From Salvelinus alpinus (lineage: Eukaryota; Chordata; Actinopteri; Salmoniformes; Salmonidae): 64,000 nucleotides of DNA. The translations under genes and the position numbers were made by a program. The stretch lies in the NCBI RefSeq assembly GCF_045679555.1, contig NC_092089.1:3083652-3147651 (forward strand), given 5' to 3'. Below, piece after piece: positions 33,473 to 36,400 of the stretch. Every line of letters starts with the position of its first letter. The stretch's first letter is position 1. Below the pieces are notes generated by a model, which worked only from the letters and a program-made list of their open reading frames with translations, ran no database searches and was not told where the DNA came from.

Positions 33473-36400
33473 CTAGAACACAGCAGTTTTCAACTCCACC
33501 CCTTCCTTCTCTGGTGCTGGGGGCTGCGTCCACACCTCCGTGGTGGGCTTGGTAGAGAAGCTGTCTATGGGGGGGTTCGTTGGAAGGTCAGGCAGGTGCC
33601 ATGCGATGAAGACCAGATACATCCCAGAGCCCACCATCCCTCCCAGCAGAGGAGCCATCATGGGAACCCAGAACCAGTAGTTATAACACCTAGAGAGACG
33701 AGGAGGAGGGAGGATTAGTTACCAAGTCTGCAAGTCAATCAACTTCACTTTAACAACTCGTGCCCAGTTCCAAATTGAAAAACGGTGTCTGTGTGTCCGT
33801 CATGTGCCTGGTTTAGCACATTGGTATCCGCTGGTAGATGTTCCTATAGACATAAAGTGCCTTACGGGCACACTTGGCACAACAGGCGGCTGGTGGCACC
33901 TTAATTGGGGAGAACCGGCTCATAGGAATGGCCGGAATGGAATAAATGTAACAGTATCGAACACATCAAACACATGGTTTCTATGTGTTTGATTCCATTC
34001 ACTCCATTCCAGCCATTAATATGAGCCATCCTCCCCTCAGCAGCCTCCTGTGCGTGGCACACTTGGCACCAACACAAACACACAAAGCAGATCTAGCTCT
34101 AGTCCAGGAGTAGTCCACTCCTTTCATATGGTTCACTCTTCTCTCCCGTGCACTTAACTGACCCCCTGACCACTTCCTGTAATACCTGACATGTTGCACA
34201 CCTGCTGACTCAGGTCAAAATGTGTTTGTGTGTTAGAAGACGTACGTGAACACCTCAGTGTTCCACCTGCTGACTCAGGTCAAAATGTGTTTGTGTGTTA
34301 GAAGACGTACGTGAACACCTCAGTGTTCCACCTGCTGACTCAGGTCAAAATGTGTTTGTGTGTTAGAAGACGTACGTGAACACCTCAGTGTTCCACCTGC
34401 TGACTCAGGTCAAAATGTGTTTGTGTGTTAGAAGACGTACGTGAACACCTCAGTGTTCCACCTGCTGACTCAGGTCAAAATGTGTTTGTGTGTTAGAAGA
34501 CGTACGTGAACACCTCAGTGTTCCACCTGCTGACTCAGGTCAAAATGTGTTTGTGTGTTAGAAGACGTACGTGAACACCTCAGTGCCCCAGCCGGCGGTC
34601 AGTGTCAAGAGGCGTGGCCCCAGGTCACGGGCAGGGTTTATCGCTCCGCCGCAATTGGACGACATCGACATGCCGATCCCCAGGACTACCACGGCAACGA
34701 TGGGCGGGATCAGAGCGTCGGGGGCAGGACTATTCTTCTGGTCATCCAATGGGAGAATGCAGAGCATCAACATGGCAGTGCCCACCACCTATAGAATATG
34801 AGAAATTTGTGAAACCAGGAAATACAGGACGAGCGCTTGGGACGATAAGGTTCTATCTGCAAAAAGATGATTCTGAGATAAAGTTCCAATCCCTCATTGG
34901 TTTGAATGGTGTCAACACTGTTATCTTGTATTCTTTTGAACTTAACATGAATTGGGTTATTTAGGGTACTATATAGGTAGAGAACATTGAACAGAACAAG
35001 GCTATGTCAATAACTCAGGGTTAGGGTTAGGTTTAAAATCAGATTTTAAGAAGAGAAATTGTAGAAAATAGGCAGGGTTTATGACTTTGTGGCTGTGGCG
35101 GTTAGTGACGAAGGCCAAACGCTCTGAGGAAGGCCTTGAGGCCGATACGTAAAGTTATTAAAGAGCAGTGATACTATCAAGATCAGTGTGAGGGTTTCTT
35201 CTTTTTCTCATCTTATTCAGCGTTTACCATTCACCTGCAACAAAGATGGCTCAGATGAGTGAGTGCCTTTTGAGTTAGTGACAACCCACCATCTTCCGTT
35301 CCTGCTTCATACTGTATCATATTGGTCTGACCTGGTCTAGGATGCTGCTGCTGAGAGATAGGTGCTCTCCGGGATAGGTGGCAAAGATGGACGCCGTCTC
35401 ATTAGCCCCATACACTGTCAAATTCCCTCCACTGAAGTCCATGATAGCATCTGACAGAGAGAGGGAGCTGGTTGTTCATGATAGCATCTGACAGAGAGAG
35501 GGAGCTGGTTGTTCATGATAGCATCTGACAAAGAGAGGGAGCTGGTTGTTCATGATAGCATCTGACAAAGAGAGGGAGCTGGTTGTTCATGATAGCATCT
35601 GACAGAGAGAGGGAGCTGGTTGTTCATGATAGCATCTGACAGAGAGAGGGAGCTGGTTGTTCATGATAGCATCTGACAGAGAGAGGGAGCTGGTTGTTCA
35701 TGATAGCATCTGACAGAGAGAGGGAGCTGGTTGTTCATGATAGCATCTGACAAAGAGAGGGAGCTGGTTGTTCATGATAGCATCTGACAGAGAGAGGGAG
35801 CTGGTTGTTCATGATAGCATCTGACAGAGAGAGGGAGCTGGTTGTTCATGATAGCATCTGACAGAGAGAGGGAGCTGGTTGTTCATGATAGCATCTGACA
35901 GAGAGCGGGAGCTGGTTGTTCATGATAGCATCTGACAGAGAGAGGGAGCTGGTTGTTCATGATAGCATCTGACAAAGAGAGGGAGCTGGTTGTTCATGAT
36001 AGCATCTGACAGAGGGAGCTGGTTGTTCATGATAGCATCTGACAGAGAGGGAGCTGGTTGTTCATGATAGCATCTGACAGAGGGAGCTGGTTGTTCATGA
36101 TAGCATCTGACAGAGAGAGGGAGCTGGTTGTTCATGATAGCATCTGACAGAGAGGGGGAGCTGGTTGTTCATGATAGCATCTGACAGAGAGAGGGAGCTG
36201 GTTGTTCATGATAGCATCTGACAGAGGGAGCTGGTTGTTCATGATAGCATCTGACAGAGAGGGAGCTGGTTGGTCAGTGACAGTTATCATGGCACACTAT
36301 ATCATAATGTCTTACTACTCTGCTACTGAATATGCATGTGACAAGCTGACATGACACCAGTGATTGGTGGGACTGGTGTGTGAGTGTGTCTGACTGACCA

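Follow-up and report, generated by a model that had tools for sequence, protein, structure and literature searches.

The 64,000-nt stretch of Salvelinus alpinus DNA analysed here (the window) carries on its minus strand an intact aqp10aa aquaglyceroporin gene with six coding exons and a coding sequence (CDS) of 906 nt for 301 aa. The coding part of exon 1 lies at 43696-43782, with an upstream in-frame ATG that would extend it to 43932. As placed by reading frame and splice sites, the following exons span 38114-38240 (exon 2), 36399-36536 (exon 3), 35332-35450 (exon 4, 119 nt, first base 35450), 34571-34788 (exon 5, 218 nt) and, up to the stop codon, 33473-33689 (exon 6). All five introns are GT-AG, and the top PDB match of the 301-aa open reading frame (ORF) is human AQP10 (6f7h, E=1.2e-83). 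Broken aqp10-like exons follow downstream at about 25.1-27.1 kb. These aqp10ab-like pseudogene remnants (25100-27100) have frame breaks in the equivalents of exons 2 and 5, and the end of their exon 3 is replaced by a CT-rich array (26165-26593). In salmonids, aqp10aa lies in tandem with a downstream fractionated aqp10ab pseudogene, and the aqp10aa cluster is duplicated (aa1/aa2), with both copies on one chromosome in several species (excerpts of PMC7408487). The same excerpts describe aqp10aa1_v2 as an M3 variant that is 39 residues shorter; the third methionine in the long N-terminus of the window gene is residue 40, i.e., 39 aa past the long start, which fits this variant. With its intact AQP10-like ORF, a broken aqp10ab downstream and a second gene on the same contig, the window gene is, by its sequence, a salmonid-type aqp10aa locus.

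The acceptor of exon 4 belongs to a minisatellite at 35440-36276 (minus strand), for which Tandem Repeats Finder (TRF) gives a period of 37 bp, 23.1 copies and 96% matches. The start of exon 4, ATGCTATCATG, occurs 23 times in the minus direction, as 22 decoys and the frame-keeping copy at 35450, which is the last in the direction of the gene. The 25-mer ATGCTATCATGAACAACCAGCTCCC occurs 22 times, every time exactly, and was absent from 100 shuffles. Read with the gene, the order is ATGCTATCATG-AACAACCAGCTCCC-(pyrimidine tract)-CAG, 22 times over, and then the exon 4 start ATGCTATCATGGACTTC; the exon part common to all units is 11 nt. Copy count and alignment bear out the unit proposed in the earlier note (pyrimidine tract, CAG and the first 11 nt of exon 4) as well as its figure of about 22 decoy acceptors, and its placing of the real acceptor in the last unit agrees with the observation that only the last acceptor keeps the reading frame. 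The unit length of 37 bp given there applies to 18 of the 22 units, the others measuring 33 bp (three units) and 35 bp (one unit). The boundary CAG/ATG (the slash marks the splice junction) is kept at every decoy (22/22), and the full 23-mer from -20 to +3 equals that of the frame-keeping acceptor in 11/22 decoys. For those 11, core-site strength cannot separate decoy from frame-keeping acceptor. The first 25 nt are constant in 22/22 units, and variation is confined to the pyrimidine tract, in the form of CT slippage and three types of substitution; this confinement is no convincing evidence of selection (a rough count gives about 0.07). Intron 3 contains 32 matches to CTCTCT, overlapping matches included, and CTCTCT is the kind of site bound by PTB. 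RNA structure was rejected as a device, as about four units fold worse than shuffled sequence (z = +1.90; 198/200 shuffles at least as stable). A recursive or dual-specific splice site array of the UBC type (excerpts of PMC10809524) was likewise rejected, the boundary being CAG/ATG in 22/22 units, with no AGGT.

Searching the 2.37-Gb assembly of the window with the unit at up to two mismatches returned at least 19 matches, repeat counts in this search being lower bounds: at least 18 of them in the array and a further one, on the contig of the window at a distance of 25.6 Mb, at C4:28708261-28708297. The latter lies inside an intact second aqp10aa gene, hereafter the sister. No retrocopy with the exon 3-exon 4 junction was found at up to three mismatches, and the array unit had 0 matches in viral contigs. 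The two CDS are identical at 905/906 positions, with one synonymous difference (CCT/CCC) and the same protein, and the introns show 62 differences at 3821 aligned sites (arrays excluded). If one copy had been neutral since their separation, substitution counts of 1/906 in the CDS and 62/3821 in the introns would have a probability of about 0.005 before allowing for gene conversion, and of 0.03 without the exon 4-5 region, where conversion may have occurred. That the CDS is less diverged than the introns argues mildly for both copies being functional and constrained. Between 33473-43782 and C4:28706305-28712561, intron 4 differs at just 1/540 sites, which suggests local gene conversion.

The sister's intron 3 is 152 nt long and has a single acceptor. 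Flanks on both sides of the window array match the sister, relative to which the array is an 800-bp insertion located 11 nt into exon 4. Between the exon 3 donor and acceptor 1 lie 148 nt (36251-36398, minus strand) that align end to end with the sister's intron 3, with 2 substitutions and two 2-nt gaps. The first, 5'-most unit acceptor (36250-36276, minus strand), with its AG directly upstream of 36250 and a CTGAC at -24, corresponds to the sister's sole intron 3 acceptor. We infer that the single-copy state is older than the array, in which case the first unit (36250) would be the ancestral acceptor with a branch-point-like CTGAC, and the array would in effect lie within exon 4; the opposite history, in which the sister contracted rather than the window copy expanding, may also apply. 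A scan of acceptors 1, 2, 6, 11 and 23 of the 23 for yUnAy at -60 to -12 was positive for acceptor 1 (CTGAC at -24) and acceptor 2 (the same CTGAC, at -57) and found no such motif for acceptors 6, 11 and 23. CTGAC occurs only near the first unit. The internal units are invariant at that place and lack it, and the last, frame-keeping acceptor carries a copy of exon sequence (...ATCATGAACAACC...) where acceptor 1 has CTGAC. This contrast is suggestive only, because exon 3's own acceptor likewise has no yUnAy in -60 to -12.

A stop codon more than 50-55 nt upstream of the last exon junction usually triggers nonsense-mediated decay. Every one of the 22 decoy acceptors is predicted to bring in a premature stop, with 288 nt or more between it and the last exon junction; the decoy exons would measure 156-919 nt vs. 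the normal 119 nt. Skipping of the 119-nt exon 4 shifts the frame, with a predicted stop 171 nt before the last junction. Given these stop positions, mRNAs that use a decoy or skip exon 4 should be decayed. The proposal in the earlier note that use of another copy would "add short peptides" is therefore not supported, as 22/22 decoys are predicted to give a premature stop and none a full-length protein with an added peptide. Nor do the units keep an open frame in the manner of a coding VNTR: just three of them (those of 33 bp) preserve the frame, and the stop from every decoy start rules out a coding role of the acceptor array.

A second minisatellite, of 65 bp, covers the last 15 nt of exon 5 and its donor CAC/GTACGT (34199-34585, minus strand; 6.0 copies, 100% matches), so that five decoy donors lie downstream of the exon 5 donor. 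The repeated junction reads CACTGAGGTGTTCAC/GTACGT..., and the donor 9-mer is identical in 6/6 copies. Both this array and the fact that the first copy of the acceptor array, rather than the last, matches the ancestral acceptor had been missed in the earlier note. Thus, the tandem unit at either place incorporates the authentic splice site of its exon, with 23 copies of AG/ATGCTATCATG, the last of which is the exon 4 start, and 6 copies of the exon 5 donor. As the acceptor core is identical in 11/22 decoys and the donor 9-mer in 6/6 copies, the choice of site must depend on context. The sister has 2 copies of the 65-bp unit vs. 6 in the window, and a 37-nt piece of the unit was found in the assembly, at up to two mismatches, at 8 places, namely these 6 and 2. 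Copy numbers of 2 and 6 (donor) and of 1 and 23 (acceptor) look like ordinary minisatellite growth. All five decoy donors are predicted to give a premature stop, the protein ending after ...EVFTYVF at 52-312 nt before the last junction, which makes the nearest decoy donor borderline for decay. Human AQP10 shows intron 5 retention, a possible parallel to the exon 5 array; among the papers listed in a search of the open-access literature, none dealt with that retention.

Of the 64 kb of the window, 21.4 kb (about one third) consist of tandem arrays. TRF reports three arrays of period ≥20 inside the window aqp10aa, and two of them sit on exon edges; the chance of both doing so under uniform placement is about 0.001 (post hoc). 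We surveyed 71 of the 75 MIP-family exon matches (the 4 in the window were excluded; fetched DNA covered 69/71) for arrays of period ≥20 over an exon edge, with the edges of HMM matches as a proxy for exon edges and with overlapping loci counted twice in array density. Uniform placement over 138 edges predicts 0.85 such arrays and two were seen, an 85-bp array on C29 (L042) and the sister's copy of the 65-bp array, so that one case is independent; strong enrichment of exon-edge arrays across aquaporin genes was rejected on these figures. With a survey this close to the uniform expectation, growth of minisatellites in this genome should give rise to exon-edge arrays as a by-product. Near exon matches, all arrays of period ≥20 were inspected: L009 and L042 straddle an edge, L019 lies within coding sequence, and L059, L035 and L056 are intronic. 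Among those of period 10-17, L013, L060, L049 and one array in L035 were inspected, and L041, L046, L009, the 10-bp and 12-bp arrays in L056 and one near C28:8995482 were left out.

Several repeats seen along the way merit a record. The L042 array (1653-1829 of a locus that starts at C29:45968700) is an 85-bp tandem duplication of 2.1 copies over the exon 3 end and donor (CAGTACTATG/GTAAGG) of another aquaglyceroporin-like gene. At L019 (C30:30025139-30025480 ± 1500; locus positions 1770-2032), an in-frame 63-bp repeat of 4.2 copies in an exon that, by its sequence, is presumably aqp4-like would encode the first transmembrane helix (...AEYLASLIFILLSLGSTINWS...) four times over. Within the window, a 39-bp array of 28.9 copies (49736-50862) lies downstream of an exon resembling PDZ; its unit reads TTGTTTTTCCACAG/CTTCTCTC on the strand of the PDZ-like gene and is acceptor-like, and an exon origin was not seen. 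A minus-strand open frame of 1122 aa (52033-55398) contains two in-frame coding repeats (HTPLVEQNTT, about 11 times, and GGVGERGGVGYR).

We consider it fairly probable that the acceptor array arose by chance growth of a minisatellite over a splice junction and is tolerated since the exon-proximal acceptor wins, at the price of some transcript waste. At first, a short tandem duplication would have taken in the acceptor of exon 4 and the adjoining 11 nt of the exon; growth of the ordinary minisatellite kind would then have added units up to a total of 22 extra, in the window copy of aqp10aa only and with the sister unaffected. The donor array of exon 5, with 6 copies in the window and 2 in the sister, would have come about in the same way. 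Useful mRNA would be made by passing over 22 decoys to the last acceptor, which is presumably favoured because it alone borders an exon of normal size (119 nt) with the full exon sequence and a nearby donor, i.e., by exon definition. Use of a decoy, above all of the first with its ancestral branch point, would lead to a premature stop and nonsense-mediated decay, so that the array would be at most a drag on output that rises with copy number. No selected function of the array would be required. This explanation draws on the single-acceptor sister with a CDS identical at 905/906 positions, the complete ORF, the context-dependent choice of sites, the premature stops, the constraint on the CDS and a survey near expectation. 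It is opposed by the state of decoy 1, which has retained the intron length of the sister along with the sole CTGAC and would silence the gene if used by default, and by the presence of two exon-edge arrays in one gene, which exceeds random placement (about 0.001, post hoc).

With clear reservation, it is intriguing to propose that the window copy keeps the whole equivalent of the sister's intron 3, yet makes protein only when the acceptor of that intron and the 21 copies after it are passed over and the 23rd is used. If true, the locus would be a natural in vivo ladder on which exon definition overrides an intact ancestral intron. A gene with one acceptor and otherwise almost the same sequence would act as its control within the nucleus, and the donors that close the next exon, 6 in the window copy vs. 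2 in the sister, would form a second ladder. The same alignment of the stretch up to acceptor 1 with the entire intron 3 of the sister also speaks for cryptic loss of function, which we regard as unlikely: splicing would still remove the ancestral intron 3 of 148 nt, with the exon 3 donor, the ancestral branch point and acceptor 1 in use, the remaining units would be exon with stops, and the sister would supply the protein of a dead copy. CTGAC at -24 is found only at acceptor 1, and the frame-keeping acceptor has no yUnAy in -60 to -12; however, the exon 3 acceptor has none there either, so that its absence is not disabling alone. Features of intron definition in the short-intron class of zebrafish (excerpts of PMC6047831) and the failed attempts to isolate Atlantic salmon aqp10aa2 (excerpts of PMC7408487) fit a dead copy as well, although the window copy could be either aa1 or aa2. 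The much lower divergence of the CDS than of the introns (1/906 vs. 62/3821) weighs against it, though the difference could also stem from recent gene conversion or from a young array.

Still less probable in our view is a length-dependent rheostat, possibly selected, in which copy number tunes the correctly spliced output. An effect of array length on splicing is plausible by comparison with ABCA7, in which the length of the VNTR and the skipping of an exon beside it are correlated (excerpts of PMC5954066). The frame shift and stop predicted for exon 4 skipping (171 nt before the last junction) and the 32 CTCTCT matches in intron 3 would suit such a device, whereas the sister does without an array and the units appear homogenised rather than selectively maintained. 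Tandem arrays are error-prone in assembly, but it is very improbable that the real copy number is much smaller or the array misplaced, as variant units are interspersed (33, 35 and 37 bp, three substitution types), both flanks match the sister and the array is shorter than 1 kb.

Engineered duplicates are the usual means of studying how position and context guide the spliceosome among identical sites, and aqp10aa would be an evolved counterpart of such constructs. Twenty-three acceptors (11/22 decoys core-identical) and six identical donors, compared with a sister that has one acceptor, two donors and the same protein, make a natural test pair. The locus also cautions that a flawless ORF is no guarantee of output: a repeat on an exon edge, which annotation would record as ordinary intron, may silence such a gene or lower its yield.

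Minisatellites with repeated splice sites have precedents, of which the CTNS minisatellite (excerpts of PMC5628181) proved not to be one. Turri 1995 reportedly describes one with multiple splice donors in an interferon-induced transcript, said to be human IFI6 (6-16); it shares repeated splice sites with the main array of aqp10aa, the sites in IFI6 being donors, going by the title of that report. On the acceptor side and again in a salmonid, the first 15-17 nt of exon 5 of rainbow trout irak3 are repeated four times directly upstream of that exon (excerpts of PMC6763605), and we take the intron 4 motif in Table 2 of that paper, which spans about 39 bp, occurs in 4-5 copies and contains AG as well as a run rich in pyrimidines, to be the same repeat. 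Exon 5 is one of 13 exons in the cloned irak3 cDNA, and its presence there despite the upstream array counts for chance growth with tolerance in aqp10aa. The irak3 array differs in having 4-5 copies rather than 22, and the excerpts of PMC6763605 describe no unexpanded sister and do not discuss use of the extra acceptors.

In human ABCA7, the intron 18 VNTR has a 25-bp unit that begins with the exon 18 donor (GT); one unit can be retained through a repeat-borne donor, with retention at about 2%, and it is skipping of exon 19 that correlates with VNTR length (excerpts of PMC5954066). As in the aqp10aa arrays, an exon's true splice site is itself part of the repeat next to it. In ABCA7 this site is a donor, however, in a unit that starts from GT, whereas the main aqp10aa array lies on the acceptor side and includes exon sequence; the exon 5 donor array is thus the closer parallel. 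In the model of intron gain by tandem genomic duplication, splicing signals are copied and the duplicated sequence turns intronic, and a potato intron inherited its branch site, its pyrimidine tract and its 3' site in this way (excerpts of PMC4974935). In contrast, aqp10aa gains no intron; an existing one is lengthened by a shift of acceptor. With irak3 and ABCA7 as acceptor-side and donor-side precedents, the aqp10aa array is a larger case of known exon-edge arrays, and what is new in it, relative to the open-access literature searched, is a single-acceptor sister in the same genome and a paired donor array.
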